From a virus: DNA of 64,000 nt. The notes under the pieces are model-generated. The model worked only from the letters and a program-made list of their open reading frames with translations, was not told the origin of the DNA and made no database searches. This document shows positions 23,754 through 63,900 of this stretch, piece after piece. The first letter of the stretch is position 1. The number at the start of each line of letters is the position of its first letter. The DNA lies in the IMG/VR virus record IMGVR_UViG_3300033571_021402, positions 1-64,000 of that record. One strand, written 5' to 3'. The position numbers were made by a program, and so were the translations under genes.

Positions 23754-26700
23754 TTACGCCATCGCGGCGACAACTTTGTCGCCCATTTGTACTCCAACAT
23801 TGTTTAAGTCATTCGCAAATCCGTACAGATTTGCCATTGCTGCCGCCAAGCCACGACCTTTATGGTCTTTGGATATTTTTGGCCTGCCAACATTGCGTCC
23901 ACCGCTAAACGACATCGTGGCAGATGGCTTAAGATTCTTTGACTCAAACATGCTTTTTAGAACATCTGATGGGCTTGACATTTTGTCAAAAAGACCCTGT
24001 ATTTTCCTGTCCCTAACCTTTATGTATTGGTCATGCGTAAAAACTTTTACTAAACCATTAGCGCCCGAAATTACCCAGTAATCGCGGCTTTCGCCGGTTG
24101 CAAAATCTGTGTTTCTTACTCTGCGAGCTGCAGTTATGGGCCCGTTGGTAAATTTTCTAGTATTACCAATTCGTTTTAGATGTGATGAGCCTGTATTGAA
24201 CTTATTAGACTTAAGTTCGCTAATTGCAGCACTAACTTTTCTTACAGATTCATCATCGAGCGTAAATCCTCCGGTTCCTCCAGAGTCAATAAATGCAGGG
24301 CTTGGGTCTTCGCCACGTCCTAGTAAATCCCATAGCCTATTTAGGTCTGTTACGGCTATCTGGTCTTCCTTGAGACCCATGTCTGCAGCCCTTGAAAGGT
24401 TGTCTTCATTGTTAGGATAAACATCGACAACATCTAGGTAAACAGTTCCATCCGAAACCCATCCGCCTATTGTTGTTTTGTCAGCTCCAGGTTGTGGATT
24501 TGCAAAAGTTTTTGGTCCGTGGAAATCCATCCATGCCAAGAATGTCTCTACTAGTTCATCAGACGGATTTCCTTCAGCGTCAAAATCCGCTACGGCATCG
24601 ACTTTCATGCCATGCCTATTTCTTGCAATGGCGATTCCTTCTTTTACGTCATCCATCTTGTCGACCTCGACGGTAAAGCCACCCATAAACCCCTTGGTTA
24701 GCGTGGCTTTTACTGCGGCAACTCTTTCCGGGTCGCGATTGAAGGTGACCCTCATGTCGCTGGCTTTCATGCGTGCTTCAATAAGATTGTATTTAATTAC
24801 CTTTCCAGAAGAAAGACGATTTGATTTACTCGACTTGAATCGTCTGGCTCGCGATTTACTACGGCCAATAATGTCTTGGGCTAGAGCCAGCTCGATATCT
24901 TCTTTTGGCGCATCTTGAATTTTCTTTCTGCCAGATGACAGCTTGTTATTGATGGAGATTTTCTCCATCTCGTCAACCGCCTCCCGGAAGTTTCCTGCAT
25001 AAACTAGCGAAACTCGTCTACCCTTGAGTTCACCCTCTCTAATGCCGAACAGCTCGGCCGGCGCATTTACGAAGCCGGGGTCGCCGGAATCATCTCGTCT
25101 GGAGTGCCCAAGCCTTCTCGCTGCGTATATCTGGAAATGCAAATGCCTTACAGCAAGCTTTTCCAGGTCTGATAGCGGAGAGTCTGGATGGTCGGCCATT
25201 GACATCATCGCAATGTCATTTGCCCATTCTCCATGCCTATCAAATGCACGGCCTGTACCAAGGTGGCCGAACAGGTCGTGGAGGGCCTGAAGAGCCTTGC
25301 CGGATAGTCCCATATTAAAGTAGAGAGGGTTCTCTATTCCACCAATATAAGACTCAAGGAAAGAACCTAAATCTTGACCCTTTGTTCCCATAAATAGGGA
25401 ATCGTCTCCCAGTGCTGCGCCGGCCTTCGCTGCTAACCCCATCATAAATTCACTGTGTTTACGCCACGCTTCGCCATATATGCCGGGCAGCGCATCGCGC
25501 GATAGGGCGCCATTCCCTATTGCGTCTGAGGGCAATACGTAACCCTTTGGCGCTATCGCTTCTAGGAGTGGGAATTTAGCTTTTGCTGCGTCGTCAGTAT
25601 ATTTTAGAACTGATTCACCATTGACTGAAACCTGTTTTGCAACCACGTTGCCAAGAACGTCTACCCATTCCTTATTTTCGTCGTCAAAACGTAATGAATT
25701 AGCCACTGCCTTATCTAGAACTGGGAGCAGCGAACCGCGTGATGGAAGTTCTATTTTTCTCCAGTCAATCCTCTTTGGCATTTGTTCTGCTATTTGTGGG
25801 ATTGGGTCAGCTGATACGAACGGTATCCCGTCTGTGGCAATGCTTATGGATATTGAGTCTAACAATTTTCGCCCTGTATCACTGAACACGCTGTGTGGCG
25901 TCACTTCTTGGAGCCGTTTTTTATTCAAAACCCTAAGAAGGTTTGGCAGTACAGATTCAATAGTTGACCGCTGATAGTCATCGATTGTTATTCCAAGCTT
26001 ATTTTCTAGTATTGCGGCAATTCTTTTTCCGAATGCAATCTTTGGTATGTTTCCTTCTGATACTCCGGTCGTTTCAGCTACGCTGAGCTCGCCTTCCAGC
26101 GGTAGGTCTTCTGTGACCGGGTATAGTCTGGCACCAGACGAAAGTCGTGATGAAGAATTCTGCGTATCGGCACTATTGAAATCGTCAAATCCAAGATTAC
26201 GTAATTTTCTATATGCAACATTTGTAACCTTGTCCCTGCCTGTAGCCATATCAAGCGTTTGTTGCACTATTTGACGAGCTTCTTCCGTCGCCTCGCCGTC
26301 TGATGGCATTTCTAAGAGCAAATTGGCCGGAGGAGTAATCATCCTCGTGTCTGTTAGACGACCGAGTAGAACAACCTCATCCTCTCCTAGACATCCAAAA
26401 CCGGTTAATGGGTTTGAAAATATTTGCTCCACGGGGACATATGCCTTCATGAGGATATTTGCGTCAAATACTGCCTGAGCTTCCTCTAGCGCGTCTATGC
26501 CGGGTTTTTTTGAAGCGGCAAGCGACGTTGAAAAAGCTTGAGCCATGGTGCTGCTCGTTGTCCATGATGAAAGCGGGCGCATGGCTACCTGTCTTTCAGC
26601 AATTTCACCCCTTTCGACTGCCATTTTTGGCGTGGCCTTCATGCCTCTCCATACGCCGATATGTGTAATTCCTTTTGACTTGTAGTAATGCTGCGTTGCG

Positions 26701-29700
26701 TCGTATATTGCCTTTACTACAGAACGAATTATTTCTGACTGTTTTTCACTAAGTTCTGGCGCATCGTCAAAAGCAAGGTCTCCAAGTTCTGAGCGCAGTT
26801 CAACCGGAACGGCAGAATCATAGAGAATATCGTCGCGCTTTCCGCGCACTCCTCCGTACCATCCGACGGCGTCATCTAGCCCAAACATTTTTCGCGCCTC
26901 GTGCTGTATCGCCAGGGCTACTGGGTTTGAGTTGTTGGAAGAAATAGCCCATGTATGGATGATGTCGGAAACTATTGCCAATCGCGCTTCTCTAATCCCA
27001 TCAGGTGTGTTTATATCGAAAAATGAAACACCACTCTTCTGTTCGTAACGAGCTTTGTAATCTTCAGCATTCCCGGATATGAAGCGCAACCTATTTATCA
27101 AGAAGTTTTTGAGTAAGTCTTTGGTTTCAGGTGAATCGACATTTGTTTCGTTTATGTCTACTATTCCTGCAGCGGCTATTTTGTTTAAAAAGTCATCTTT
27201 TGCACCAAATGTTACGTAGAGGCGGTCATAGGCTCTATGTTGTTCGTCTGTACGCTCTAGCTCTGGAACAATTTTCCCGTCCCTAATCAAAAGTTTAAAA
27301 TCTTTTGCGAATTGGTCGCTTATAGAGCCAGTTGTAGAAATTAAAGCCATGCCGGGCTTTCCGGTGCGCGGGTCAATTTCGCCAACGGGGGAGAAAATTA
27401 TGGCTAAACCCTCTCCATCTTTCAACGGTCGACCCGTCATTGGGTTTGTTCTGGTCTTGCCATTTGTGCCGCGTATTTCAGAAAGTAGGTCGCCAAACAT
27501 TGTCCTAAGCTGGATACCGAAACTGACTAGTTCTCTCTTAATTTCGTCTCCCCCAAGACGGGAACCCAGGTATGGGGTAAGTACAGACTTCTCGTCTCCG
27601 AATGCAACTTTTGTTAATTCATCCCACTTGTCGCCAAACAAGTCATCGTATGAGTATTTTTCCAGCTCGTCTATTATTTCATCGAACCAGAATCTCTTTT
27701 GGATTAGTTTGTCGTGCTTCTCCACGGACACCAATGAGCCTGTTGACCTATCGATGGCAAATCTTCCAGCGGCACTCTTTTCTTCTTCCGTTGCGTTTTC
27801 CGGCAGATTATCAATGGCGTCAAACAGAGCTTTCAGTGCTTTGAAATTCGGAGCTGAACGGAAAAATCTGCTTTGAGCCAATGAATCCATTCCGCTTGCT
27901 GCCACTGACTCCTGAGAGAACGATTCAATAAATTCACGCGGGTCAATCTGGGTAGTTTCTGCGATGTTTGACGCAATCATTCGTTTCGCCGAGGAGCTAG
28001 CTTTTCTGTCCTCCTCTGATGAAAACATACTCACGCCAAATCCAGTTACGTCAAGCGGAGATAGGCCCCCGATTACTGGGTCAAGAACCATTGCCCTCAC
28101 GTCATGTTCTAGTTCCGCAGTCAAATCGTCTTCGGAGGGGATAGGGAGAGCGGCGCGCAGACGCTCAGATGGCTCTACGGAAAAGGAGACTAGTCCCTCT
28201 GGTCTTTTAGGTGCTTCAAATGTGTATGGTTCCGGAGTTTGTTCAGGCTGTTCGGCGGCCTGGTCTGCCCCTATGAGCTGCCTTAGTGCCCTGGCCATGC
28301 GCCCCCTGCGCTTTTCCCTCTCTGGCCTTTGCTTCGCGCCAGAGGAAAGCCTTATTATCGGTCTTCCGTCAGCAGTTTTCTCCCACGGCAAGTCATCTGG
28401 GTCTACTCCGGCAAGTGTATATATGTCTTCGCGCAGCTTTTTGCTTAATGCAATTTTGGGCATGTCTTTATTCGGGTGCATTATCGCAACAAAGGCTTCT
28501 GCTATGGCTTCTCTTTTGTTTACATTGCCATATGACGTTGCAGTCAAAGCCTTGTCGGGGTGAGCTGAAAACATCTCAGTGGCATCGCGGCCGGTGAGGT
28601 CTACAAATTCTGTATAAATACCTATCGCTTCTTCATCTGTTTCCGGGTTCGCGTACTCTTCTGCGACATCTAATGCAGCAAGGTATCTCGGGTCATCCAT
28701 CTTCCCGCTTCCGTAATAGGAGCGAGCCTTGCCGTTTTTCCCATTTGTCTCTGTGTCCCATATTGCCCTGTAATGGAGCCAGTGACCATATTCATGTATG
28801 ACAGTGCCATATAGTGACCTGTCGATATGCGCATCGCGCGGTTCTGGAACTCTGTTTGGAGTTAGCTCTAGTGGATAAACACCCTTTTCATCGCTTGTTA
28901 GCGACTCCCTGTCAATAAGGGCGCGCGGGGTAAGACCAACGAGCCCAAATTCCCTGGATGCTAGTCCGCTGACAAAGGGAGTTTTGTCAACGCCCCGTTG
29001 CTTCCGAAGAAGCTCCATTCTCTCTTTGACGTCAGGGCTATTTTCATACCCATCTATTGCTTCACGCGTGAATGCAACAATCATCGGAGAGCCGAAATTT
29101 TGGAACATCCATAGCATTTGCGGTGATGATTCGAGCATCCCACGAACAAGGTCCTGAGTTGCCTTTACCGCTTCCGGAGAGTAATCGGGAGCGAGATTAT
29201 TCTTATCCTTACTTAACTCGTCATAATATTTTTTTAAGAACTTTCGCCATTTCCTATTTGTGCGCCAGTTATCTCCGGCTATGTCGTCTGCCCACATTTC
29301 AAAGTGTTGTTCTGGCGTAGTTGGTACAACAACACGCGATATTTCGTCTGGGGTCATTCCAGACAGCCATGTTGAAGAATTTTTGCGCACTTCTTTTCCA
29401 GAAGCGTCCGGCTGACCGTAGCCCTTGACATTGCGTCTACCGGGCTGAACTGGCTCCCGCCCTTGTGTTGGCTTCATGGCGATAGTCGGCCTCTCCCCAC
29501 CAGAGGCAAGCCTGTCATAAACACGAACTTCGTAGCCGTTTCGCTTTTCCTTCACCCAATCATTAAACCCTGACTGGCTCATATCGTTCGTGTCAGAAAA
29601 ATCTGTGTCCTCTGGAAAGCTGTTTAGTACTTCAACCTCTAGCTGCCTAGATTCAGCCCACGACTCCAGCTTTCTTAAGAAATTGTCTATCGCGTCGATA

Positions 29701-32700
29701 CTTTCGTTTTTTTCAAATTCTAAGTTGAAACTAACCTGACCATCATTGTCCTGGTTTACGTTCGACGCTTTGATTTTTTCCTGGTTTAGTAAGGTATTTA
29801 TTTTTCTTACGGTTGGCGGGCCCGACCATTTGCCGGAAGAAAGCTTGTCTATGTACTCTTTCTTAAGGGCCCTGAACTCTTCAACTTCAGCATCGAACTG
29901 GTCAAGCTTTTCTTTCCATATTGCGTCACGCTTTTCTTTGCTTAGAACGTCTTTTGACCAATCGTTTTTTATTGCCCCGTCAATTGTCTTTAAAAGGACC
30001 TCATTGAGGACTTCTGCGTCCGCGTCTGCGTTATGGTGCTTATCTCCGAGGTCAACATCCAGGTATTCCGTGATTGCCTTAAGGCTGCTGGACGGAACGT
30101 TTTGGTTCTTGCGCTTGTCGAATATGTGCGGTCCATCTGGGGAATCTTCTGACCATTTTGGAAGAGCAAGAGATGCAATCGCCCTAGTATCCACCCACCC
30201 AGACGGTCTCCAGTCGGTTCCCATTGATTCAAGTGCGGTATCCAGAACCTGCTTGTCGAATACGGCATTTTGGGCCCCAAACAAAGCATCTGGGCCAGCA
30301 AAGTCCATCAACATTTGATGTGCCTGCTCTATAGATGGCTTGTCGTTAAAAAACTCATCAGTGAGAAGTTCGCCGTTTGGTCCCTTGAGGTTATCCCTAG
30401 ACCAACCCTCCCATTCGTCCTTCTTCATCCCTGGGTCTACGTAAACATTAAAACGGTCTACTATTTCTCCGTTTTTTACCTTTACTGCACCGATTTGTAC
30501 TGGAGCGCCATTACCGGACGGCTCATTGAAGTCGTCAAAAACAAGCCCTGTTGTTTCATAATCAAGAAATACAAGTTCCGCGTCATAGTATTTCTCTTTG
30601 AACTCTTCCCACGAGTCAGCCTGAAACAACTCGTCTGCCTTGCCGAGAAATGGCCCATAGGTAGGTTGACGTGGATACTGCGGTGGTTTTCCGCTGCTCA
30701 GCGTAGTATCGGAATCAATATTGTCTAGCGCTACTTCTTTCGCCCCAGAACTGAGTTTGCCCTGACCGGAAAGTTTGACGTCCCAGATTTCACGTCCATC
30801 ATCCGTCTGCGTCTTCTTAACCAGCTTGTATGTTGCACCAGCGGGCAGTAATACTTCGTGTTCATTTATTCCGAAATATCTTTCGTCGAGAGGCTTCCGG
30901 GTATCAAAGTTTTCCAGGTTATAGTCATTTGGGCGTTTAGATATGTATCTGCCACGTGTGTTCTTTGTTGTCAATAAGCGAAGAACTATTGGCCTTTTGT
31001 CTCCCATTCCAGAGTATTGGCCTGGGGCCATAACTGTAAAGCTCTGGAAGCCCCTATCGCCAAATGTATCACCCTCTTTAAGTGATGCAATTTCTGGCGT
31101 ATTCCCGATTGACCTATACAACGTTATGCCGGCGGTTATTCTGTTGTCCATTAGGAGCCGCTGCGTAGACGCATATTCGTCCAGGTTGGGGGACCGCGGG
31201 TCATCAAATGTGTAACCCAGCCTTAGTGAGTCATTAATTACTGACCCAAAATCTTTATACTCAGTTATTTTTTCAAGAGCTCCATCGTATTTAGGCAAAG
31301 ACGCATCTATATCGTTTTTTTCAAACACTCTAGATATGAGTCTGTATAGTGATTCTGGAGTGAGCAATGCTCCCTCTTCCCACGTGTCATAGTCGCCGTC
31401 GTACAGCTCGGATACGTGGACTCCACGAGAGCTACGCTTAGTTGAGCCGGACGATAGGCGTCCAGTGGATGCCCCAACAAGCTGTTTTAGGGGTCGTGTA
31501 TAGAAAAATTGGGACTTGGCGTTAGAGAACACCTTATATGCGCCGGGGAAATCAACTAGCTCTTCCGCCGTTGCTTCGGTCTCAAAAAGTCCGGTGCCTT
31601 CATTTTTTACATACAGAGAAGATATTCTCTTTCTGTCTTCATCCGAAAAAAGTTCTGGACTGGATTTAATTGCTTCGTCGATTATTCCTATGAACTTTTG
31701 TTTATCAGTTTCTCCGCCCCATGAGAATCCGTTTTTGGGCCAATGAACTGCCCCAATCGAAGAGACATCAGAAGAGCCATATGTAATAATTGAACTTACG
31801 CCAAGTTCGTTATATATTTGCTCATTTCTCGCATTAAAAGCAGAACCCAACCCCTGCCCCTGTGCATTTTTGTTTATATAGAACGAATCGTGAGACATTA
31901 CTTTGATGTCTTTGTCATCGTTGGTTATATGAAGAAGCCCCCTATATGCGGTTGCAAGGGCTGGCATATCGTATTCACTGGACGCAAATCGCTGCTTATC
32001 GCTATCATCAAGCGCGCTGAGCACATCGTCTTTGTATTGAGGCAGCGGTGTAATTCTTAATTGAAGCGATACTTCTGCAAGCAAATCCCCTTCGTCCAGG
32101 AGTTTGTCAAACACCTGCATCTCATCCTGCTCGGCAACGTCCTTATCCGTGATTTTGTCTATTTTAAAAACTGGGCTATATTTGGATGGGGTACGACCCG
32201 GGTGTACTTCTATCAATACCCTATTGCCGATGTTGAGCTTCTTCCCGTCCGCTGTTGTAAGAATGATGTCTCTGTCTAGCTCCATTTCACCGCGGAAGGC
32301 ATCGGCCAAAAGATTAAGTAGCTTTTGTTTTTTCGAGGACCTGTCATCGTCTTCTTGTAGAAGCTTTAAGGGAAGTGGTTCCGGCATCCCCGGCGGACGT
32401 GGCGGACGCGGTGCATTGCCATCAATTATGTAAGTGTCTTCTGTTTTAAACTCATCTGAATCTAAATCATCCAAAAATTTAGATATTATTTCTTTGATTT
32501 TCTCATCAACTGGCGGCTGTGAGTCGACTATCTCCTGATACTTTTTTCCGGAAGATAGCCTGTTGCCCGTGTCGGGATACTCCGTTCCCCTGTTTGAGTA
32601 AATCTTATTACCGCTTGATTTTGGCTTATCGTTATCGCCACCGATTCCGACCCAGACCGGTTTAGTCGTACCCTCGTCAGCCCAGCCATCGCCATCGATG

Positions 32701-32939
32701 TCTCTTCTAGACCCGGTCGGGGTGCGCGTTCCCGGCTTTCCGCCTGTTGGCAGGTCAAATCCGCCACGCCCCCGTCTGTCTCTGTTTCTGCGTCCATCGC
32801 CTATCGTGGGCCTATCTATAGCCCTAGAGCCCAAATAGCGCCCCAGTCTTCCTAGGGTCGATTTTTCCTCTTGTTCGGCACGGGCGGCACGGCGCGACTC
32901 ATCGAAGGGAATAGGGAACTCTTTGTTATCTGCAGACAT
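23754..32939 (-). CDS. 3061-residue polyvalent protein: GNAT, two ADP-ribosyltransferases, exonuclease, zincin
   Basis: A giant multi-effector protein of the polyvalent type, thought to be delivered with phage DNA. Domains in order: Gly/Arg/Asp-rich head with an EF-hand-like DIDGDGWADEG; GNAT-like fold (about 360, NAQGQGLGSAFNARNE); ADP-ribosyltransferase (LYRS about 608, SFT about 630, EHE about 690); DnaQ-like exonuclease (LDYETTGL about 788, HHNADAD about 970); zincin metallopeptidase (HEYGH about 1380); second ADP-ribosyltransferase (VWRG about 2093, SSWTTSS about 2126, EDE about 2186); HDLFGHLGTG region (about 2565); unknown C-terminus. Nine [R/K]L[S/A]SG copies (R127, R494, K728, K1032, R1143, R1530, R2265, K2666, R2708) plus TLSSG at T746 lie between the domains. 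No clear ribosome binding site. Confidence 0.85.
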   Translation of the reverse strand: MSADNKEFPIPFDESRRAARAEQEEKSTLGRLGRYLGSRAIDRPTIGDGRRNRDRRGRGGFDLPTGGKPGTRTPTGSRRDIDGDGWADEGTTKPVWVGIGGDNDKPKSSGNKIYSNRGTEYPDTGNRLSSGKKYQEIVDSQPPVDEKIKEIISKFLDDLDSDEFKTEDTYIIDGNAPRPPRPPGMPEPLPLKLLQEDDDRSSKKQKLLNLLADAFRGEMELDRDIILTTADGKKLNIGNRVLIEVHPGRTPSKYSPVFKIDKITDKDVAEQDEMQVFDKLLDEGDLLAEVSLQLRITPLPQYKDDVLSALDDSDKQRFASSEYDMPALATAYRGLLHITNDDKDIKVMSHDSFYINKNAQGQGLGSAFNARNEQIYNELGVSSIITYGSSDVSSIGAVHWPKNGFSWGGETDKQKFIGIIDEAIKSSPELFSDEDRKRISSLYVKNEGTGLFETEATAEELVDFPGAYKVFSNAKSQFFYTRPLKQLVGASTGRLSSGSTKRSSRGVHVSELYDGDYDTWEEGALLTPESLYRLISRVFEKNDIDASLPKYDGALEKITEYKDFGSVINDSLRLGYTFDDPRSPNLDEYASTQRLLMDNRITAGITLYRSIGNTPEIASLKEGDTFGDRGFQSFTVMAPGQYSGMGDKRPIVLRLLTTKNTRGRYISKRPNDYNLENFDTRKPLDERYFGINEHEVLLPAGATYKLVKKTQTDDGREIWDVKLSGQGKLSSGAKEVALDNIDSDTTLSSGKPPQYPRQPTYGPFLGKADELFQADSWEEFKEKYYDAELVFLDYETTGLVFDDFNEPSGNGAPVQIGAVKVKNGEIVDRFNVYVDPGMKKDEWEGWSRDNLKGPNGELLTDEFFNDKPSIEQAHQMLMDFAGPDALFGAQNAVFDKQVLDTALESMGTDWRPSGWVDTRAIASLALPKWSEDSPDGPHIFDKRKNQNVPSSSLKAITEYLDVDLGDKHHNADADAEVLNEVLLKTIDGAIKNDWSKDVLSKEKRDAIWKEKLDQFDAEVEEFRALKKEYIDKLSSGKWSGPPTVRKINTLLNQEKIKASNVNQDNDGQVSFNLEFEKNESIDAIDNFLRKLESWAESRQLEVEVLNSFPEDTDFSDTNDMSQSGFNDWVKEKRNGYEVRVYDRLASGGERPTIAMKPTQGREPVQPGRRNVKGYGQPDASGKEVRKNSSTWLSGMTPDEISRVVVPTTPEQHFEMWADDIAGDNWRTNRKWRKFLKKYYDELSKDKNNLAPDYSPEAVKATQDLVRGMLESSPQMLWMFQNFGSPMIVAFTREAIDGYENSPDVKERMELLRKQRGVDKTPFVSGLASREFGLVGLTPRALIDRESLTSDEKGVYPLELTPNRVPEPRDAHIDRSLYGTVIHEYGHWLHYRAIWDTETNGKNGKARSYYGSGKMDDPRYLAALDVAEEYANPETDEEAIGIYTEFVDLTGRDATEMFSAHPDKALTATSYGNVNKREAIAEAFVAIMHPNKDMPKIALSKKLREDIYTLAGVDPDDLPWEKTADGRPIIRLSSGAKQRPEREKRRGRMARALRQLIGADQAAEQPEQTPEPYTFEAPKRPEGLVSFSVEPSERLRAALPIPSEDDLTAELEHDVRAMVLDPVIGGLSPLDVTGFGVSMFSSEEDRKASSSAKRMIASNIAETTQIDPREFIESFSQESVAASGMDSLAQSRFFRSAPNFKALKALFDAIDNLPENATEEEKSAAGRFAIDRSTGSLVSVEKHDKLIQKRFWFDEIIDELEKYSYDDLFGDKWDELTKVAFGDEKSVLTPYLGSRLGGDEIKRELVSFGIQLRTMFGDLLSEIRGTNGKTRTNPMTGRPLKDGEGLAIIFSPVGEIDPRTGKPGMALISTTGSISDQFAKDFKLLIRDGKIVPELERTDEQHRAYDRLYVTFGAKDDFLNKIAAAGIVDINETNVDSPETKDLLKNFLINRLRFISGNAEDYKARYEQKSGVSFFDINTPDGIREARLAIVSDIIHTWAISSNNSNPVALAIQHEARKMFGLDDAVGWYGGVRGKRDDILYDSAVPVELRSELGDLAFDDAPELSEKQSEIIRSVVKAIYDATQHYYKSKGITHIGVWRGMKATPKMAVERGEIAERQVAMRPLSSWTTSSTMAQAFSTSLAASKKPGIDALEEAQAVFDANILMKAYVPVEQIFSNPLTGFGCLGEDEVVLLGRLTDTRMITPPANLLLEMPSDGEATEEARQIVQQTLDMATGRDKVTNVAYRKLRNLGFDDFNSADTQNSSSRLSSGARLYPVTEDLPLEGELSVAETTGVSEGNIPKIAFGKRIAAILENKLGITIDDYQRSTIESVLPNLLRVLNKKRLQEVTPHSVFSDTGRKLLDSISISIATDGIPFVSADPIPQIAEQMPKRIDWRKIELPSRGSLLPVLDKAVANSLRFDDENKEWVDVLGNVVAKQVSVNGESVLKYTDDAAKAKFPLLEAIAPKGYVLPSDAIGNGALSRDALPGIYGEAWRKHSEFMMGLAAKAGAALGDDSLFMGTKGQDLGSFLESYIGGIENPLYFNMGLSGKALQALHDLFGHLGTGRAFDRHGEWANDIAMMSMADHPDSPLSDLEKLAVRHLHFQIYAARRLGHSRRDDSGDPGFVNAPAELFGIREGELKGRRVSLVYAGNFREAVDEMEKISINNKLSSGRKKIQDAPKEDIELALAQDIIGRSKSRARRFKSSKSNRLSSGKVIKYNLIEARMKASDMRVTFNRDPERVAAVKATLTKGFMGGFTVEVDKMDDVKEGIAIARNRHGMKVDAVADFDAEGNPSDELVETFLAWMDFHGPKTFANPQPGADKTTIGGWVSDGTVYLDVVDVYPNNEDNLSRAADMGLKEDQIAVTDLNRLWDLLGRGEDPSPAFIDSGGTGGFTLDDESVRKVSAAISELKSNKFNTGSSHLKRIGNTRKFTNGPITAARRVRNTDFATGESRDYWVISGANGLVKVFTHDQYIKVRDRKIQGLFDKMSSPSDVLKSMFESKNLKPSATMSFSGGRNVGRPKISKDHKGRGLAAAMANLYGFANDLNNVGVQMGDKVVAAMA

Positions 32940-45172: not shown

Positions 45173-45848
45173 GTCTAATCTGTTTTCTTGCTACCGATAC
45201 ACGCGCCATCAGAGGTTCACCCGTGGCAGCATGTGGCGACCTGTCGCCCAATAGTGCTTTTGCCCTGCGCGCCGCTCTTCTTGATGTCGTAAATACGAAT
45301 GTTTTTTCTGCTGTTTTTCTAATAAAACTATCGGAAAAGCTGCTTTTAATTAGGTCGTATTCAATGTGTCCGAGTGGGTTCTTGCTGTTAACCAAAACCT
45401 TCCCAAGAGAATCATTAAAAATAACTTTACCTGAAGCTATTTTTCTCAGTAGCTCGGATTTTTTACTTGAGTTCTTAAATGCTCCGGCCTTGAATGCAAC
45501 AGCGTTTATTTTTGCATGAGGTTTTACAAACTTGGATAGCGATAAAGATGAGGCCCTTAGCTTTTGGTTGCCTACAACATTAGATACAGAACCGCTGTAC
45601 GAAAACCCCGGAGTATCAACGGCAGTTATTGCGGTTTCGGAATCTGAAACTACTGATTTTTCACTGAACCCAGTAAACACAAAGCCAGCAGGAATAGTGT
45701 TTGCTATGTCGTTCGCCTTAAATGATGTTTCAGAAATTATTGACTTTCCGAACTCAGTAATAGACTTTACCTGTATCCCGTTATCAGAGATTGTCGCCAT
45801 AACGTGCGGCATCCCACGAAATGCATCTTTTATAAAACCGACTTTCAT
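45162..45848 (-). CDS. head-region hypothetical protein
   Basis: A 228-residue protein of unknown function, serine-rich (SSLSLSKFVK), with a basic end (ARVSVARKQIRHGR) and beta-strand-like repeats. Its start overlaps the stop of the upstream gene as ATGA and its end overlaps the next by 11 bp. By position it is a head-assembly or minor structural protein. Confidence 0.65.
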   Translation of the reverse strand: MKVGFIKDAFRGMPHVMATISDNGIQVKSITEFGKSIISETSFKANDIANTIPAGFVFTGFSEKSVVSDSETAITAVDTPGFSYSGSVSNVVGNQKLRASSLSLSKFVKPHAKINAVAFKAGAFKNSSKKSELLRKIASGKVIFNDSLGKVLVNSKNPLGHIEYDLIKSSFSDSFIRKTAEKTFVFTTSRRAARRAKALLGDRSPHAATGEPLMARVSVARKQIRHGR

Positions 45849-49020: not shown

Positions 49021-52000
49021 AGCATCCCGCCAGACGTGGAGGTTATTTGTGGCCTGCGGCTGTTCTTCATCTCTTTCATCATGTCTTTTGCTGCTTCGGT
49101 TATTTCATTTCCGATAGCTTTAATCAGGACAGACTCGACCGACTCCCCACCCTTTGCTGCCTTGGAGTGTGAGCGCGGGTCCTCTATGTTGAAGCCTGTT
49201 GGGTGGGCAAACTTAATGTTGTTCAATCCCTTGCCGGCCATATCTGTCTTAATTTTTTGCGCCGCCCTATACTGCCTCAGCATTGCCATGCTCTGCGTGT
49301 TGATGTTTTTGCCGCCACCAATTGAGTAAAAATACTGAATCTCTTCTGGCGTAAATCCAGCAGCCCTTAGCCTGTCCGCTATGGACCGCTCGTTCACTGC
49401 GTCGCTGATATCTTCTTTTTCACCGGCAGCTTCTAGTCTCTTGAATGGGATATTAATCTGTTCAATTTCATTTACATCGAATCCGCCAAGTATCTGTGCC
49501 TCAAACGGCTCTCTAGATGAGCCATCTGGGAGGTTTCTATCGAACGAATTAGGCATTGCGCCCTTTGAGCCCCTAGATGCGTTTACGTTAGAGAAGTCAT
49601 TGTTGATTGATGACGACAACATATGCAGGAATGCTTCCTGTGCTTGTTGATTTCCGTTTATCCCATCAGGATTAAGGATTGCGTCGGCAACATCTTCCCT
49701 ATTTCGCGAGTTCAGCTTAACTGGGCGATGCGCCGATGATATCGAGTTTCCACGACCATAGGCAGTTCTCTCTGACACAGATGGTCTTAGGACGATTTCT
49801 ATGTCACCAAATGCGGTCAAGCCGTCACCAACAACATCTTCATCGCCTATTTCGTACACCGCGTCTGGTCTTAGATTTCCATTCCTGGAATTCATTATTT
49901 GCTGTCTCTTGGCGTCAATGTGCGACTTATGAACAAGATAGCCGCTGACCGGCAAAGAGTCGGTTGGTACGGAATCTGGAATGCCTATTCGCGAGTAGTA
50001 CTCCCTTGCGTAGTTTTCCGAGGATAGACCAACAGTCTTCCCAGACTCTATGTCTTCACCCTGGTTGGCATTATTCGCAGAACGACCACTTGATAGTCGC
50101 AATTTCGCCATTCTTCCAACATTTTCTCTACCACTGGAGAGCCTTGACGACCTCTCAATATCAGCAGCGCGAATAATTTCATCTAGCTGGCGCTCTCTTT
50201 CTATTGCAGCAGCGCTCGGGCGTCTTGTGTCGGCTAGTCGACGCCTATTTTCAAGAGCCTCAGCGTAGTTTGCATTGTTTTTTAGGCCAACAGAACCAAG
50301 CTGGATGTAGTCGCCTTCTGCGTACTTTTCGTCAATAAGTCGTGGTGCATTTTCCGAGAGGTCGACTGATATTGCATCAAACTCCTCTTGAGTTATCGGT
50401 GATATATCTTCCTGACGGCCTTCCCACTGTAGTTCAGCACCAAGACGCGCCTCCTTAATGCCGAAAGCGTCCTGGAACACCTTTCCAAGAGTCAAACCCT
50501 CAACAATGTCTGTTTGGACTTCGTTTGCAGACAGGGGTATTTGAAGTTCTTTAGGAAGAGACCTATTCCCTACAACAATTCCAGCCCACCTATGATGGCC
50601 GTCAAGAATGTAATTATCTTTGGTCGTTAGGATTGGCTGCATAAACCATTCCTTGCCCATCTCTTCCAGGTACTTCTCTCTAAATTCTGAGTCAGATAGA
50701 CCTGGTGACTCTTTGCGTATTCTTTCAGCTACCTCGATGGCTTTTTCCTGAATTGTTTGAGCAGTGCCGTCTACTTTTGATGCCACTAATTGCTGTTGAG
50801 ATGGCGCGTATTCACTCGGGTCTACTGTTCTTAATCTGACTGCTGGGCCATTTTCTGGGTCCTCTACAGTTATTATGCCATTTAGCCAATCAATAAATGG
50901 CGTTTCAAGGTTTACCTCAGTGTCGTTCCAGTTTGTATTTTCATAAAGCCACTGTTTTGCGGCATCAGAAAGATTGTCAAAAGAAGCTGCTTTATGCTCT
51001 CGTGCCGTAGTGCCGCCGAATTCATTGCGTAGCGAATGTTTTTCAGCAATTATTTCATATAAAATTCCGGGGATTTCCTCGTCTGATACTGGGTCCTCTG
51101 GCTCGTCTAGCTCTGCACGCTTCTTATTTATTTTTGCAATTTTTGCGTCGAGCTCGTCGGCGAATTCTATTTCTAGCTCGCGATTGCGCTTTACTCCATC
51201 TTTTGAGGGCTCCCATTTACCCGCAGCAATTCCCGCCTTAAGCGCCATTATCGCCTTTGTGTTTTGCCCAGACGACCTACCGTTAGTCTGCGGCATTTTC
51301 GCCCTATCAATTCCTATATGCCCTGAACACATAAGGTTATTTTCCGGGTTATATAGCGAGCATAGGTCGGCCTGGTAGTTGCCAACGTACTCATCTTCCA
51401 TGTCTTTTCTGGTTTTGGGGTTGTCCAGGTCAGCATCTGGATTCAACTTTGCATATTCATCCTGGAATGCCTTCCATCTTGGATGCCCGTCTTCTATGTG
51501 TTTTTTAGCTACTTCCTTTACCTGTTTCTCAAAAGCTTTTTGCGCCTGCTCGGTCAACCTGACATCCTGGTCCTTAACTTCAACATGGTGACCGAGCATC
51601 ATGAGAGCTACTGCAGTAGAAACATCATCAACTTCATAGAGGTTTGAGTCTTTTTCGCTAATTGACTTTCTACCTGACCTTTTAACGGAACCACCAAATC
51701 TCCTTGATAGTTCAGCGTCAGACATATCATTTACGTTTTGTCCGCTGTTAATAATGTCGTCAAAGACGGATAGGGCGCGTTTTGCTACTTCTTTTTCTTG
51801 ACGTCTACGCTCGGCTAAATTTTCACTTGAATCAATAGTTCTGCCTGAGGACAGACGTGATGAGCGTTGCTCTGCTGGCATCCCGGCGAGGCGCTCTGCT
51901 CTCCTAGATGCACGTGAAGCCTCGTCTGAAGGCGATGAAAACGGAGAGCGTATTGAGCCACCTGACGCAAGTCTTTCGATGTCTGCATCAGTCGCGCGTA

Positions 52001-55000
52001 CCCTGACTCTTCTGTCAAAACCTTCGTGCATTCTGTACGCGGCCATCTGCGCTCTAACTATAAGTACCTCTTCTGGAACATTAGCAATCAGGTCTGCAAC
52101 TTCCGGATGAATATCACCTCGAGAAATACTGCCGTCACCGCGTCCTCCGCCAAGCGCCTTTTTGATGTTCCTCGTGATGGATGACATTCTTGATTCGCGC
52201 GACTGGGTCCTCTGCTGTCTTGTGGCAGGCCTGCCAAGAGCATCACTTTTTGTCTTTGCCATAATTGTCGCCGACGCTGCAGCTGCAGCAGCACCAGATG
52301 AAAGCCTTGATGAGCCATCTGGCAATTCATCAACACCTTCGCCGAATGAGCCCCCAGCGTCTATGACATCATCTAGCACTTCAGAAGTTGATTTAGCCGC
52401 CGACTCATCGTAGTCGCTCCGCGGGCCCGGGAATGTGTCCCCAGACGCGCGTCTCTTCGCAACATATCTGTCTGCAACAGCCTGTATCTTTTTCGAGTGG
52501 CTTTGCGCCCATATGGCATCAGTTTTATTCTTTGACAAGCTATCTGCCATACTGTCGACAACTTCAACAGCGTCTTTCTGGTAAGAAATTTCTGCCCGTA
52601 TCGTGCCATCGGAATCCCGGCCAATAATTCTCAGCCTTCCAGGCGGTGCAACAAATTTCTGTTCGCCTTCTCCGCCTGTTGCCGGGAATAGGCCACGGTC
52701 ACCCTCTCTCACCTGGACAACTACGCGTCGTGAAGTTCTGCCAGTTTTGGCGTCTCTCCTGCCACGTTCTGGCATGTCTGTCTTTTTGGTTCTGCTTGTT
52801 ATCACGCGACCAGAAACAAACTTATCAACATCAACTTCCTTCCCGTCCATTTTGCCCTTTAGGGCCCCTGGTTCGAAGTCGATAATCGCTTCTATTTCAA
52901 ATGGGTCCGCGACAGACGTACCGTCGATTGCTTCCATCGTTGGTATTAAGAGTTTTTCGACCTGCTGAACAGCATCTGCTTCATCGGAAGACATTGGGTC
53001 AACCTCTAGGCCAAGACGCTTGAGTCTTGCGTTTCTCTTGTTCATTGCACGCCCAGCCCTTGTCTGGTTGGCGGGGTCAAGAAGCATCCCAACGTCAGAT
53101 TCCGCTACGTCACCGAGCTCTTTCATGGCTTTCTTTTGTTCTGGCGTAGCTTTTACACGTCTGCGCTCACGTGCTCCGTGGTCAGCAGCTTCTTTTGCGC
53201 TCTTGAACTTCTTGCTTGGCTTGGGTGGGGGGCTTATTGTGTCCTTTACCCTCTTATCAATATCTCTCTTAATTGCCGGAATACTCCTGGTATCTCCAGC
53301 TTCTTTTAGATTCTTTGCATGTTGGTCTTTTACAACATCGATACGCTCTGCGAGGTCTCTTGCCTCAGGCGATGCTGGGTCCATTGTTGAAAGGCGCACC
53401 TCATCGTCGGCAAGCTTGCGGATTACTTTTTTATCCGGCATACCCTTTACGCGCTCACGCAAGTCATCTAGGTCTGCGAGCCTTGCAATTTCTTCCATTT
53501 CTCCTGCATCCAAGAGACCCTCGCGCTCCCTGATGGCCCGTACTTTTTCCTCAAAACGCTTCTTTTCGCCACTAGCGCCAACGCCATACTTTTTTCTCCA
53601 TAGCTTTGATGCTTCGTCATATCTTTTACTATGAAAATCGAACTCCCTCTGGGCATCCTTTATCGCTTCTGATTTAAGAAGTTCGAGCGCACTTCTATCA
53701 TCGTCTGGTAGCGATGGGTCAATTTCCATTGCACTAAAACCATCAACTCTGCGCTTAGCATCATCGCGCTGAGAGGCAATTATCGCAGCCTCGCTAAACA
53801 TTTCCTCTTCTGGAAGTTCGCTGAATGCTGTCTTGAATCGCTTTATTTCCTCGCGCAGCTCCGATGCAAGTCTTTCATCCCTATCCGCAAGCGTCTCTTC
53901 AATAACGTCTTCGGGAATATCGTCCGGTACGGTAGTCGGGGTTGGGATGCGGAATACATCGTCCATTGACTCCATAGCCGAATCGTCGTCTGCAGAGGCC
54001 CTTTCACGCGCTGCGGTGGCAAAACTGAGATTGTCCATCCACTCGAGAGCAGCGTCTATGTCATCGCCATAGATGATTCCACGCTCACGCAGTGCCCACA
54101 ATTCCGCTGCGGCCTCTAGGGCCCAAACCTCAGTGCCTTCGGCGTATACGTCACGCGGATATGAGCCCGCAAGTGGAGCTATAGCCTTGATTCTCTCCAT
54201 TGCGTCATCAAGTGACTCTATGTTTATCGAGTCGGCAACGTCTGTCATTATTGCCATGATGTCATCGCCGTTTAGAGCATAAATAGAGTCAACATTCCTT
54301 GAGCCGACTGCGACCCCATCGCGCATTATAGGAACAGATATGAAACCCTTTTCGTCTATTTCATTTTGAATCTTTTCGACAAACAATTGAGCCTGTCTGT
54401 GGTGTGCCAACTCGTGGAGCATAATGTGCCCCGAAAAAGAGTAAACGCCATCGATTAGGCCTGCCATCCCGCGAGCCGCATAGTCGGCGTTAACCAAAAA
54501 GTCAGCCACTGCTAGGCGAGATTCAGCTTCGCTTCTTGCTCCAACTGCAGAAATCGCAAGACGTTCATCTGGCCTCATATCGGGGAGCATTGACTCCTGG
54601 TTTGCCAGAATCATCCCCATATTTATGTGTATGACGCTTCGCAGTTCCCCCGGAACCTTGCGCATAACTGGATTGCCATCGCGGTCAAGAACTGGTGTTC
54701 CGTCTGGATTTAGTCGTGGAACAAGTTCTGGTGCGGACCTATAAACACCTGTTCCAGCTTCATCTGGGGAGTTAAAGTCATATTCGATTCTGCCCAAAAA
54801 TCTTGTGCTGGATGGGTCCTTCATGAACTGGTCAAGAAGTGTTTCGAATAATGCTTTCTCCGTATCTTGGTAGCGCTTCACGTCAGCATCAAGAAGTCGA
54901 GTTTGCTCTTCTTTAGACAAAGAAGGCCAGCCAGGTATTGATTCAAGACGTGCTTCAGTAAATCTTCTTACTTCCAAATCCGTCAAACGCCCAGCACCAC

Positions 55001-56222: not shown

Positions 56223-56236
56223 CTGGCGCCCCCTTT

Positions 56237-57947: not shown

Positions 57948-60900
57948 CTACTTTTTGCCAGAGGTTCTCTTCTTGCCTGAGAGTGTTTCCCCAGACTCGA
58001 TTCTTTCCCTAGCTGTCCTCAACTGCTCGTCGCTAAATATGTCGTCGATGGTGTAGCTGGTGCCGAATATTTCATTAAACCTGTCAACCATTGATTGCAT
58101 TTCTGCGCCAGAGAATCGCGGCTCATTTCCCTTTTTGGGAGACCATGGGGAGCCTTTCGCCGTGGCAGCAGCGCTCAGTGTCACGCCCATGTCCGTTGCC
58201 CCAGTGATTCTGTTCCGATTATCTCTGTTATTAAGTCTTGAATCAGGGAAACTCTTGTCAATGAACTCGTTTAATGCTTCATAGACAACATATTTTGAGT
58301 TTTTAAGTTCTGAATCAAAACGCTCGCCGGTATCTCCGTCTTTCCAGACTGACGAGGCGTCGGGCAGAACGCCGGTCCTAATCATCTGCGCAACGGTTGC
58401 AGTTGGAATTCCGTTCTTTGACCATTCATTGTTAATTCCGACATCGTCGGTACCAAATGCGGCAGAAAGTCTTTCTTGCAATCCCTTTTTCCACTCCGCC
58501 CTGTCTATGCCGAGATAGTCAAGTAATGGCTCGATTTCAAAGTCTTCTCGTGAAGTCTTGTCTGCGATTATTGCCTCGCCAGCGCGCGCAACCTGCTCAT
58601 CAGATGGGTTCAGAAGGTCGAATGATTCGCCGTATAGGTCAACTTCAGCCTCGGAATCACCCTTTGTTGCGCTGTCTGGGGCAAATCGTCCAGTTGCACG
58701 GAATTTAGAAACCTCGCTGACCTCACCTAGCTGAGCGTACTCATCCGGCGTCATTGACTCGTTCTCTTCCGTGTCAAACCAATGCGGGAAAGCGTCTTTA
58801 CCGAATGTCTCGATAATGAATCTGTCTCGCATATTTGCGCGTCCAGCATTCTCTCTTGCTAGGTCAACATATGGGATATTTTCCGTCGTGTCGCCATCTG
58901 GGGATGGGATAATTCTCTTTGCCTCGTCAGCCGTTACGGGGGCAAAATATCTCCATGCTGCAAGGTCTGGCTGTTTGCCGAGCTCGGCAACTAACAAACG
59001 AACTGCATCATGGTTGATACCGGCGTCTGGCTCCTTGATTTTTGCTGTGTCGGCAGGGCTCAGTCCGAGCATTTTAGCCAACTCTTCACGTGTTGCTGGC
59101 CTTGATTGCGTCCAGCGAATCGTGGTGCCGCCTTCAGTATTTTCCCGTGAGGTGAACTCCGTTGGTATCCGTATTGTTTCGGCGAGCTTGTCTACCGAAA
59201 GCATCCACGTCTCAGCAGAAGGATTCTCGTTTCTGGAGTTGTCGCCAACTCTTCCAACTCTGACGCGGTTCTGCTTCATCTGCATTGCCTTGCCAACATC
59301 CCTCATTGCCCCGCGCGTTCTTTGCTGGCGCTCATTTACTGAAAGGTCGTCAACATCGACATCGATGGCAATGCCACGCTTGCGGACGCCATCCCATGCC
59401 TGCATTGCGTACTGTAGAGCCTCGCGATTTCGTGGAGTATCTGGGTTGCCATCTATGCGTATGCCGGCAAGCTGCTGGGCGCTAAGTGTGCCTGGATAAA
59501 TGCTGCTTCCTGCGACGCGGCGGCTTCTGCGGCCAGGACGAGTGCCTGTCGCGCCGCTAGATAGGCGCATAGCTGTTCCATCGGCATTATCACCGTAATC
59601 CGCTTCCCCGTCTCCATCTATGTCATTGTCACGAATAGAGCCATCGATATCGTCATCTGTATCGATGTCGTCAGGTTCATAATCTTCTTTGTCTATGCCA
59701 ATTTCGTTACCGTTTTCAGACCCAGGACCATCAGTAATCATGTCGTCCGTGATGACAATAGGGCTATCGTCTTTTTCTTCCTTCTTATTCCCACGAGGTG
59801 GAAGGTTTTCAAAGTCAATATCCTCGAGGCGCGTTTCATTTAGTTGTTTATAGAATGCTGGCAGAGGTATCCCGCCATCATCGCTGAAAGCGCCTTTGTC
59901 AAGCTCCTGTGGGATGTGCCCATCTTTCACTGCCTGCGTCATTGCTGCGCGAATGTCTTTGGTCTTTTCATCATGCAAGTAGAATGCAAACGCTTTTGCG
60001 CCGGGGTCAATCATTTCCTTGGCGCGCGACATCGCTACGTGAACAAGGTTCGCTTCTTCCATGTAGCCGATAGATGCTTGACCAGGCTGTAGGGATTGGG
60101 CGATTGACTCCGCAGGGTCGCTCAGGTCTTCTGCTATTGCAACAAATCTCGACTCGCGACCCTTTGACAGCTGCATTGTTGTTATTTCAACATCTCCGCC
60201 AGCATGTCTTGCCTCATCGCGTAGCGCTTGACCAATTCTATTTAGAATGTCGGCGCTTTCTTCTAGCGTTGCCCCCTCGATAACAAAACCATCATAAGCG
60301 CGTCGCTTTGCGTTTCCTTTCATGCCCTTTTCGGCTCCAGCCTGCGGTTTTACTTTATCCTGAAGCCCGAGGCGCTTGATGATTTTTTCTAGGTCTCTTC
60401 TATAGCGTCCATTGCCGCCCTTGCGGTTTCCTGGAGGCTGGTTTGGAGACTGTGAGCCATCTGGATTATCGATTGGACGCCCAGTATCAGCGCCATCTCC
60501 AGTTATCAGAATACGCCCAGTTGGCTTTCCTGGTTTTTTATTATCTCCGCCATCGATTTCAAGCTGTGCATACACTGCTTGGCGACCATCATTTGCAAAT
60601 TTCGGCTGCGGTATTATTATTATTTGAGCCCTTTGGCTATCGATTGCCTGAACTGCCTCTGCAGCAGTTTTGCCGCGGGATATCCGAAGAACCTCTTCCC
60701 GTCCCGCAGTAAACGCATCTAGCTCAAGGGTCTTTCTTTCCGGGAGAAGACTTGGCGGTATAACCTTGACAATCTCTTTTCCTTTGTCGTTGGTCTCTCT
60801 TATCTGGCGCCCTTCAAGGAGGGTCAGCATGCCCATCGTTCCAAGTGGAGGGGCAGTTTTGTCGCCCTTGGGAGGCTCCATAATTAGCCTAAATGCAGTA

Positions 60901-63900
60901 TTTGCCTGCTGATATCCAGCTTGATTAAGAATTCTCTCCAAGCCCTTTGCATCATAAATCGGCCCAAGCCAGCTCGACTGTTCTGGAAGGCCAAACTTTT
61001 TCCTATATTCAGCTTTTGCAGTTGGCGACTTAAGTATGTAATCGAGATGTTTTGTAAATTTGAGCAATTCTTCCCATTTGCTCAATGGGATGATTACTTC
61101 TGGCAGCTTCGGCAACCCATTTTCGTCGCGCTCAACGGCATCGCTATTGATTACTAGGCGTACGAAGTTAAGGGCCTCGTTGATTATCTCTGCGTTGCTT
61201 CTACACAGAATCATTGTTGGTAGATTGCCCTTATCGGCTTCTTCGACTCTGTCAACAATCTTGCCAGCCTTGGGGCCGTATAGACTGTCTCTTAGCTCTG
61301 TTAGCGCAACATCTTGGGCATCGCGGTCCATTGCCGATATGTCAAGTTTTTTATCCGGCGTGGAGAATTTCTTATCTATGTCGGCAATCATTAGGGCGCG
61401 AGTTGCGTCGTCTACTTCATCTACCGGGTTATTACCTTTTCTGTCTTTTTCAGGGAGGAGGGGGTCGAAAAGTCTATTAATAACAGTCTGGGCCTGGCCC
61501 TTGACGTGTTTCCACGGGAGCTGGGGAACCCCCTGCTTGCGCAAGTAAAGATTTTGTTGCCCAAGAACAAGGTTAGCTAGATGCCCAATCACTTCCCCAT
61601 ATCTAAATGATTCTGTAATTGTCAATGCGTAGTCTGCATCCAGTGATTCAAGAATATTCTTTGCTTCGCGGAAAGCATAGACAGCCTGCCTATCGTCGCC
61701 CACAATAACAATAGGAAGATTTTTTCTGTTAGCGTCAAGAACGGCTTCTAGAACCTCGTTTGAGTCCTGTGCTTCGTCCACCATAAATGCGCCAAGTGGA
61801 TTTTCTTTTGTTGCCATTCTTTTTGCGAGTTTTGCCTCGTTGTTTTTGCTGCCTTGCTGTTTTTTAACAGAAGTAACAATCCACTCTGCGCCATCTTTAT
61901 CGACAATAACGTCGCCAACGGAGTACGAGTTTGGTATCTGGACCTTGTCTCTTGTTTGATTTTCGGTATGTGTTATAAGGCCTGGGTCGCTGCGAAGGTC
62001 GGGATTTGTCAACATCCACAGTTTGGCAATTGAATCCCGTGGCGGAAGCATGTTGTTGTTACCGTCAGACATTGCGTCTATCGCTTTTTGTAGGTAACCG
62101 ACCCATGAGTCTGGGATTTGCGCATCAGTCAAGACGGTGTCTACGGCGTGACGTTTTTTGCTTTGGCCCCTCTGTGTATCGAGTTCCTGCAGCACCCTTT
62201 CGGATGGTGTAAACATCCATTTTGCTGCTTTTTCTTCTTTTGATATATTCCAACGCTTAAGCGCATTGTTGAATACGTCTCCCATTTCCTCAATGGAGAC
62301 GAATGTGCCGTCTGGGAGATTGAAGCCAGTTACTTCATACTCCTCCATTTGGGGCTTTCCGTCAGGGCCACGAACAACCTTCCCCTTGGCGTCCCTCACT
62401 TTGCGGCGTCGCTTCTGGGTTATCTGGTCTGGCCACTTATCCATGCCAAGGAACTTGGCCCAGTCCGTGCCGTCGTCTAGACGCTCCCATCCAAGGGCTC
62501 TGTATCCAGGCTCTTCTCCTGAGAATGTTTCAAAAGAGCCATCAAATAGTTCTCTTACATAATCAAAAGGAATGAACTCTGGCTCATCTGGGGTTTTTTC
62601 TGCGCTGATGAATTTTGGATTCTTTTTTGCACCGCGCGTCTTTTTTGATTCTGCACCGAGAAGAGCGAATTGCATTTTCCTGCGCATCCCCACGCCGTAT
62701 CTCTCGTCCCCCTGGCCAAGCTTCAGAGACCAATACCAGAGCTTGTCGGTCGTGGAGATTCCGGTATTCTTGGGGAATTCAAGTTCTGCTTCGAGCTGGT
62801 TCTTTTTATTGAACACTGCATAGTAGATATTGCCAATTTGATTTTCTTTTGCAAGCTTGTCTACTGCCGCCTTCACCTCATCAGCAGACATACCAGAGAA
62901 ATCGACCTTGTATCTGTCCGCTAGATAGGCAAGCTGCTCGTCGCGTCTCTTATCGCCCTCTGGCCAAAGGTCAAACTCGCGCTGCAATGCCCACGCAATG
63001 CTCTTGAGTGTCGTTGTTTTACCAGTTCCGGCGCCGGCCAATATTGACAATATGCGCGGGTCTTTTTGTCTTATCAAGCGCATTGCGACATCCATGATGT
63101 CCCTCTGCTCATTTGTTGGCTCGTTTGCTAGACCAAAAGCAAACTTCATTGATATTTTTTCGTCTGTCCGCTCTACCTCTGGGACGCCATCTTTGCGCCC
63201 CTTAATTGGCCCGGCTGATTTACCACTGGCTAGACGACCGGATGGCGTTATTACAATTCCGTCCTTATTCTTCGACGGAGCATTTGGTGAGCGGTCAAAT
63301 GAGCGAAGCTCGCGTTCGGCGACGCTTAGATTGACTGCGTCTGGAACAAGAGCTTCAAATTCATCTGTATCCAACAGGTCTTCCATTGGTCCAGTTATTG
63401 TCGTGGTTGGCTTTATGCTTGGAGCGTCTTCGTAGCCGGCAAGCATCGGAACCTCAAACCACGTGTCCATCCTGCCCTTGCGCTCGTCGTCCGGTATTCC
63501 GGCGAGTCGGCGCATTGTCGCTGAACGATTAAGCAGGTAATCGTTTGCCTGCTGTGCCTGAAGAATTGCGCGATGAAGGGCGAGTGGGTCCTGCTTCAGT
63601 TTCTTCAGCCATGAGTTTAGGTAAAGAAGATGGTCTTCTCTGACGGTTGGCTCAAGACCCATTGCGCCCATTGCAAATGCTGAGCCAATTTCAGCAACAA
63701 GTTCCTCAAATGCATACTGTTCATCACCGAACTGCAAACCGAGCGTTCTGTTAAGTCTTGTTGGATGAGAAGTCCAGTGAATGGTCTCATGCATGGCGGT
63801 CCCATAGAAAGCAAGTGCATTTTCAAATTGCTCAAACGCCGGCATGTGTATTTTATCTGTTGATGGGCGATAGAAAGCCTGTGAACCCTTAGACTCAACA

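Follow-up and report, generated by a model that had tools for sequence, protein, structure and literature searches.

Polyvalent proteins are long multidomain proteins that are encoded among the virion genes of phages and carry ART, MPTase, ArdC-type, and helicase domains (PMC5512222). Their processing by zincins or assemblin-like peptidases has already been proposed (Iyer et al., 2017; PMC5512222). Head proteases are also described as trimming proteins that are later ejected, including gp21 of T4, which acts on Alt and the internal proteins, and Pro of P1, which acts on DarA (PMC5694885, PMC12810830). The prohead protease gp245 of Salmonella phage SPN3US has many head and ejected substrates and one short motif, A-X-E with Ser preferred after the cut, present at 14 sites in nine proteins (PMC10052503). 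The present analysis concerns three giant proteins (A, B, and C) encoded in a 64-kb stretch of viral DNA, positions 1 to 64,000 of the 80,984-bp IMG/VR record IMGVR_UViG_3300033571_021402 (hereafter the window), in which a short motif with the core L[SA]SG recurs in the linkers between domains. From sequence comparison we regard it as probable that the giants of this group of uncultivated phages are polyproteins with lineage-specific sites read by a phage protease, the likeliest being a Peptidase_S78 domain within giant C. Giant C extends past the window and is found at full length in a near-identical record, G004 (IMGVR_UViG_3300032288_004702; 156,276 bp), which looks complete because it carries a 123-bp terminal repeat.

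Giants A and C resemble the polyvalent proteins in that several enzyme or effector domains of the known set lie in one chain, with Pfam matches to MPTase-PolyVal, ArdcN, UvrD, and S78 in C and to RNase_T and ART in A. They are also encoded among virion genes. A portal gene adjoins giant C in G004, and the capsid gene lies in the same region, with A about 16 kb away. In the parts of the polyvalent-protein account drawn on here, the assemblin-like peptidase is always C-terminal and no cut-site motif is described (PMC5512222), whereas here Peptidase_S78 is N-terminal and a repeated inter-domain site switches by lineage. As in SPN3US, one motif is present in several large proteins, the packaging of which is putative; 13 of the 14 gp245 sites, as they are described, remove N-terminal propeptides (PMC10052503), whereas the present sites lie between domains, with up to 17 in one chain. 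The head proteases of T4 and P1 act on later-ejected proteins, as is proposed here, but in the passages cited they make single N-terminal trims (PMC5694885, PMC12810830), in contrast to the multi-site release of domains proposed for the giants. Searches of openly licensed PubMed Central papers listed none that we recognized as describing such a motif, and as far as these searches show, three features are new: a motif placed between domains, the joint switching of this motif in different proteins and lineages, and the N-terminal position of S78.

A recurrent L[SA]SG motif in giant proteins

A first-pass annotation of the window had listed 16 copies of [RK]L[SA]SG in three large proteins and had remarked that their codons differ. 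All 16 were found, nine in A (plus TLSSG at residue 746), five in B, and two in C, and the codon differences were confirmed (Table 1). The two residues it gave for C, R204 and R1427, count from an internal ATG; in the open frame of the window their numbers are 255 and 1478, and in the 2978-amino-acid (aa) protein of G004 they are 1217 and 2440. The 16 copies compare with a mean of 0.07 and a maximum of 2 in 300 residue shuffles of the three full-length giants, and with a mean of 0.06 and again a maximum of 2 in 2000 shuffles within 60-aa blocks of the three window proteins. The open reading frames (ORFs) of G004 (200 ORFs, 49,428 aa) were taken by a simple longest-first rule, as were those of the S78 loci and motif-count genomes described below. 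Outside the giants, these ORFs amount to 40,988 aa and hold only one copy of [RK]L[SA]SG, which starts at residue 35 of a tape-measure-like protein (1595 aa). This label is based on size, position after the tail sheath gene, and make-up; no match in Pfam or PHROGs backs it.

Four related genomes (G004, G002, G007, and G005) were aligned and their 4-mers counted. In the giants of all four, LSSG outnumbers every other 4-mer, with 17, 20, 18, and 17 copies where 0.25-0.28 are expected. Its permutations and listed one-letter variants occur 0-2 times, except for GLSS (5 in G005) and LASG (1-3 per genome), and the core is therefore L[SA]SG. The basic residue included in the motif as first drawn fared less well. 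R or K precedes 17 of the 22 sites in the large proteins of the window phage, 5 of the 20 giant sites in G005, and none of the 25 in G019, where 20 of the 25 are preceded by S. An obligatory R/K was dropped after this comparison with relatives; the residues beside the motif reflect a phage-wide preference. Enrichment extends to a wider sample of 87 distinct S78 loci, defined as one row per distinct S78 N-terminus, in which the large ORFs (187,865 aa) hold 465 copies of [LF][SA]SG and the small neighbours (130,243 aa) hold 11. For the 56 of these loci with large ORF sequence of at least 1500 aa, the top 4-mer is LSSG in 31, RLSS in 4, FSSG in 4, and another word or none in 17.

The motif is retained where its surroundings are not. 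Seven sites (A 128, 495, and 2266; C 682, 784, 1218, and 2441; numbers refer to the L of the core) are identical in all four aligned genomes, and the 60 columns flanking them are 2-35% identical and often gapped. L[SA]SG is likewise found in all four at A 1144 and B 1418, as is LSSG at B 1457, B 2028, and C 814; the flanks of B 1418, B 1457, and C 814 are better conserved (identity 0.42-0.58). Other sites vary, being present in two genomes (A 729, 1033, and 2667), in three (A 747, 1531, and 2709), or in one (B 2043). A conserved word in unconserved linkers, combined with gain and loss of sites, is the pattern of a selected short linear motif, as judged from these alignments.

The first-pass annotation had placed the motif on domain borders, and this position is borne out. 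Five domain intervals are recognized in A and C and account for 30% of their residues, and all 15 L[SA]SG sites of the two proteins fall outside them (P about 0.004); the interval of the helicase in giant C (1252-2291) was merged from several partial matches, one of them below its Pfam cut-off. The flanks of the sites are poor in hydrophobic residues (0.209 vs 0.282), with none of 10,000 random draws as low. An AlphaFold model of C 600-1260 (mean predicted local distance difference test score, pLDDT, 68.2) bears on whether the sites avoid folded cores, and the answer is mixed. Sites 682 and 1218 lie in linkers of pLDDT below 50 and 784 at a linker edge; 814, weighed below, does not follow. Models of A 100-1160 from four sequences (mean pLDDT 46.1) were too poor and were left unused. 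Hypothetical cutting at every site would yield, among others, pieces with the ART domain (234 aa), the exonuclease (286), ArdC plus zincin (404), and the helicase (1223).

These data bear on the idea that the motif is a repeat without any reader, arising from low-complexity linker composition, domain duplication, or chance, which we consider highly improbable. The hydrophobic-poor flanks are indeed like those of linkers, and the S78 giant of locus L163 has ISSG at 654, 785, and 916, exactly 131 residues apart, probably a tandem duplication of a unit ending in the motif. Block shuffles that preserve local composition give 0.06 copies against 16, near variants and permutations are nearly absent, and the word is kept where the linker is not. 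Chance, composition, and DNA repetition were rejected as origins of the motif on the differing codons, both shuffles, and the rarity of near variants. A reading by chance or composition is already contradicted by the 4-mer counts, the alignment, the block shuffles, and the fact that several proteins of one phage switch motif version together.

Lineage-wise switching of the motif

Across relatives the motif occurs in versions that are nearly mutually exclusive by lineage, namely L[SA]SG, F[SA]SG, LGSR, LRSSG, and GL[AS]S[ST]. Versions were counted in proteins of at least 1000 aa in nine genomes or contigs. L[SA]SG occurs 22, 23, 21, 23, and 25 times in G004, G002, G007, G005, and G019, in which F[SA]SG occurs 0, 0, 1, 1, and 3 times. 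G014 has 16 F[SA]SG and 5 L[SA]SG. Three others have no L[SA]SG at all: G009 carries 21 copies of LGSR, 17 of them in one chain, G011 has 13 of GL[AS]S[ST], and G010 has 13 of LRSSG. Each set is spread over between two and five of these large proteins. In 14 of 17 records, one or more sites of the class found in the giants are also present in the tape-measure-like protein, including KLSSG at residue 36 in four LSSG genomes, FASG, FASG, and FSSG in G014, three copies of GLASS in G011, and LRSSG in G010; that of G022 is without a site at 36. Sites are sparser elsewhere in the GL[AS]S[ST] class, with only 1-5 each in loci L210, L215, L216, L235, and L240, and L207 and L171 have no clear motif. 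On a tree of 60 S78 domains, 7 changes account for 7 motif states in the 51 rows counted, the others being 5 without a motif class and 4 mixed L/F rows.

Because different proteins switch together, a common reader is indicated. One trans-acting reader with drifting specificity explains the co-switching best, to judge from these comparisons. The first-pass interpretation, that a recognition motif is conserved in the linkers of polyvalent proteins, is thus strongly supported, chiefly by the co-switching and also by persistence in unconserved linkers; its further step, that the motif is cut to release single effectors, stays an inference.

A common reader could also be a binding partner. The motif might serve as a docking or targeting handle for a phage protein, be it of the capsid lining, the portal, the tail tube, or an unfoldase, that packs or threads the giants along with the tape-measure-like protein, and such a partner would likewise give lineage-wise co-switching. 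Ejection is plausible for the tape-measure-like protein and for all the giants, and a separate short segment common to A and C shows that shared tags exist. This segment of 35 aa is Arg/Gly-rich and 57% identical, with the pattern LGRxxGSRxIDRPxIG. It lies at window 32766-32870 (A 24-58) and at residues 545-575 of giant C in G004, ahead of the first motif sites and with no site inside, and relatives have longer versions of it in two or three giants each. Beyond it, A, B, C, and the tape-measure-like protein of G004 have no mutual similarity. Short segments are also common to several proteins within G009, G010, G011, and G019, and together with the A/C segment they led us to drop the description of the giants as wholly unrelated. 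The A/C segment is possibly a cargo or packaging tag. Against a docking role for the motif itself, 10-17 inter-domain sites per chain (17 in G009) are more than targeting would require, a processing protease forms part of a site-bearing chain, and the capsid-targeting sequences described for T4 in the cited passages are single N-terminal peptides (PMC5694885). We therefore judge a purely docking function unlikely, and cleavage by a phage protease remains the preferred reading.

The S78 domain and other candidate proteases

The first-pass annotation saw no head-maturation protease in the window. One exists just past its end, where Peptidase_S78 begins giant C, and it was missed because the window ends inside that protein. 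Residues 33-183 of giant C match Peptidase_S78 with 44.6 bits against a Pfam cut-off of 21, and the domain also matches the head maturation protease family phrog_80 of PHROGs (E 1.2e-28). A co-occurring protease gene, which that annotation had proposed to look for, is therefore present in the form of an S78 domain fused to giant C itself. H71 and S135, which we take to be the catalytic residues, are invariant in 10 aligned S78 domains. Scans of viral contigs gave 46, 533, and 541 stretches with a relative of the giant C S78 (overlapping sets, not distinct phages). Among 42 S78 ORFs complete within their locus (not all from distinct phages), 38 are 2874-3458 aa long and 4 are 286-548 aa. In L207, L210, L215, L223, L229, L235, L238, and L240, S78 has an ORF of its own (1002-1287 aa) close to further giants, and in L095 a giant with ten sites follows an S78 ORF of 548 aa. 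Contig L171 (JASLZV010000001.1), filed in the Phycisphaerae metagenome-assembled genome ETNP2_MAG_79, has the same portal-like plus S78 arrangement and a 2690-aa giant.

In the scheme we propose, the three giants would be phage polyproteins with L-[SA]-S-G sites, of phage-specific flank preference, in the linkers between enzyme or effector domains. One phage protease would read these sites in trans, and as its specificity drifted, the sites of the giants and usually of the tape-measure-like protein would change together. The likeliest protease is the S78 prohead protease at the N-terminus of giant C, or encoded by a separate nearby gene in some relatives. The giants would enter the procapsid as polyproteins, S78 would cut the linkers during head maturation, and single domains (ART, exonuclease, ArdC with zincin, helicase, and others) would be packaged and then ejected with the DNA. 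We infer from sequence patterns that recognition means cleavage, and the role of S78 as the cutter, the timing, the bond cut, and the ejection of products are likewise putative. LSS, FSS, LGS, LAS, and the IKS of the capsid protein all have Ser in third place, with LRSSG fitting less neatly; our guess is that the cut may fall before this Ser.

The sites may instead be cut by another protease, such as a proteasome/HslV-like hydrolase, the zincins that the giants contain, or a host protease, and perhaps not until ejection into the new host. We hold this to be rather unlikely. A protein with a Pfam Proteasome match (E 5e-7) occurs in all 10 records examined that are 136 kb or longer, and in none of the 6 shorter ones. 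Giant C carries an MPTase-PolyVal domain, and in the account cited such zincins are proposed to process polyvalent proteins (PMC5512222). A protease acting outside the head would also account for the motif in the tape-measure-like protein. S78 identities follow motif class, L phages being 80-95% identical to each other and 75-79% to LGSR and GLAS phages, and those of the proteasome-like protein do not; S78 is therefore favoured modestly. A 45% relative of the proteasome-like protein occurs in phage DSL-LC01, where 11 examined head and tail proteins have no LSSG-type enrichment. The proteasome-like protein was accordingly ranked below S78 as the reader.

Several observations weigh against S78 as the common reader, or against the scheme as a whole. 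The constant presence of S78 proves nothing, because all loci were found with S78 as the query, and the S78 tree shows only that motif and phage lineage go together. The tape-measure-like protein, by position a tail protein, carries the motif, and a protease confined to the head would not obviously reach it. In 3 of the 17 records this protein has no site of the class of its giants (G009 has LASR, G016 only FSSG, and G026 none), and the site at residue 36 is of another version in G017 and G018 (F, with L further on) and in G019 (LGSR, with LASG at 586). A few sites of G010 and G011, located within or next to segments that recur in more than one protein, are not independent, and C 814 lies in a stretch modelled at pLDDT about 83. 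The capsid protein is the standard substrate of S78. In the window phage, this protein has an N-terminal region of delta type as well as a KSIG stretch; it lacks L[SA]SG, so the motif is not shared between capsid and giants as in an SPN3US-type system, and the capsid KSIG/RSIG/ESIG stretch does not switch with the lineage motif. The idea that the capsid EIKSIG stretch is a further copy of the co-switching motif was dropped for this reason.

In Gordonia phages GMA6, Chidiebere, and DalanDe, Brevibacterium phage Cantare, and Streptomyces phage Gilgamesh, S78 is 38-44% identical and adjoins the capsid genes, as here, and in DalanDe it lies near the C-terminus of a 1633-aa protein; among 6-13 chosen proteins from each of these Gordonia, Brevibacterium, and Streptomyces phages there is no LSSG-type enrichment, a further point against the scheme. 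EIKS is the top 4-mer in the examined DalanDe proteins and is listed for GMA6 and Chidiebere too. In the sets examined, GMA6, Chidiebere, and DalanDe (L097, L098, and L099) have 3, 4, and 5 copies of it, respectively, with the capsid, the protease, and further head proteins among the carriers, and the window capsid has EIKSIG. Gilgamesh gp48 (L101:4764-18638) is an unannotated protein of 4624 aa encoded between the portal/MuF gene and the S78-type gene, and it has no LSSG-type motif.

Gene context and implications

The giants, the neighbouring features, and the individual sites are listed in Table 1. A search for relatives of giant A residues 101-1159 matched only the near-identical genome, and a set of 50,697 phage records yielded no tblastn match to giant B or to the tape-measure-like protein. 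Giant B (residue 236) and a 677-aa protein (window 45845-47878; residue 129) both have an RCPxG...FTD...C stretch, which is found in protein pairs in other examined genomes too. At window 12202-16357, genes resembling those of the dTDP-rhamnose pathway (rmlD, B, C, A) lie beside a ThyX-like gene, as judged by eye.

Table 1. Giant proteins, associated genes, and motif copies. Coordinates are those of the window unless a record is named; the last column gives content or presence among the four aligned genomes.
Feature	Residues	Coordinates	Strand	Remarks
Giant A	3061 aa	23754..32939	-	10 L[SA]SG sites; ART-like piece, RNase_T exonuclease
Giant B	2401 aa	49017..56222	-	5 L[SA]SG sites; no Pfam/PHROG match as a whole
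Giant C, C-terminal part	2016 of 2978 aa	57948..63998	-	2 of 5 L[SA]SG sites; part of MPTase domain, helicase
Giant C, full	2978 aa	G004 L018:3190-12126	-	N-terminal Peptidase_S78 (33-183) and ArdC-N domain, outside window
Major capsid protein	451 aa	42990..44345	-	Pfam Phage_capsid; no L[SA]SG
Proteasome/HslV-like protein	210 aa	G004 91048-91680 (L021:11048-11680)		Pfam Proteasome E 5e-7; outside window
RLSSG	A 127-131	32547..32561	-	4/4
RLSSG	A 494-498	31446..31460	-	LSSG in 4/4
KLSSG	A 728-732	30744..30758	-	2/4
TLSSG	A 746-750	30690..30704	-	3/4
KLSSG	A 1032-1036	29832..29846	-	2/4
RLASG	A 1143-1147	29499..29513	-	L[SA]SG in 4/4
RLSSG	A 1530-1534	28338..28352	-	3/4
RLSSG	A 2265-2269	26133..26147	-	LSSG in 4/4
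KLSSG	A 2666-2670	24930..24944	-	2/4
RLSSG	A 2708-2712	24804..24818	-	3/4
RLSSG	B 1306-1310	52293..52307	-	same column in 3/4; four columns off in the fourth
RLASG	B 1417-1421	51960..51974	-	L[SA]SG in 4/4
RLSSG	B 1456-1460	51843..51857	-	LSSG in 4/4
RLSSG	B 2027-2031	50130..50144	-	LSSG in 4/4
RLSSG	B 2042-2046	50085..50099	-	1/4
RLASG	C 1217-1221 of 2978	63222..63236	-	LASG in 4/4
RLSSG	C 2440-2444 of 2978	59553..59567	-	LSSG in 4/4

Taken at its broadest, the scheme would place a virus-style polyprotein strategy in tailed phages, in which one protease, itself part of a polyprotein, matures a tail protein together with the giants, using roughly 13-25 sites in each genome, and in which protease and sites changed specificity together several times (L[SA]SG, F[SA]SG, LGSR, LRSSG, and GLASST). 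We lean slightly toward this broader view. If it is true, phage delivery of proteins 2000-4500 residues long would be explained by their synthesis as polyproteins from which single effectors are cut. Processing of polyvalent proteins, suggested earlier, would become a testable statement, with specific sites and a specific protease to examine. The site versions, a natural series, would offer a system for the study of protease and substrate co-evolution, and the sites themselves would provide a simple rule for splitting the unannotated giants of this phage group into units.

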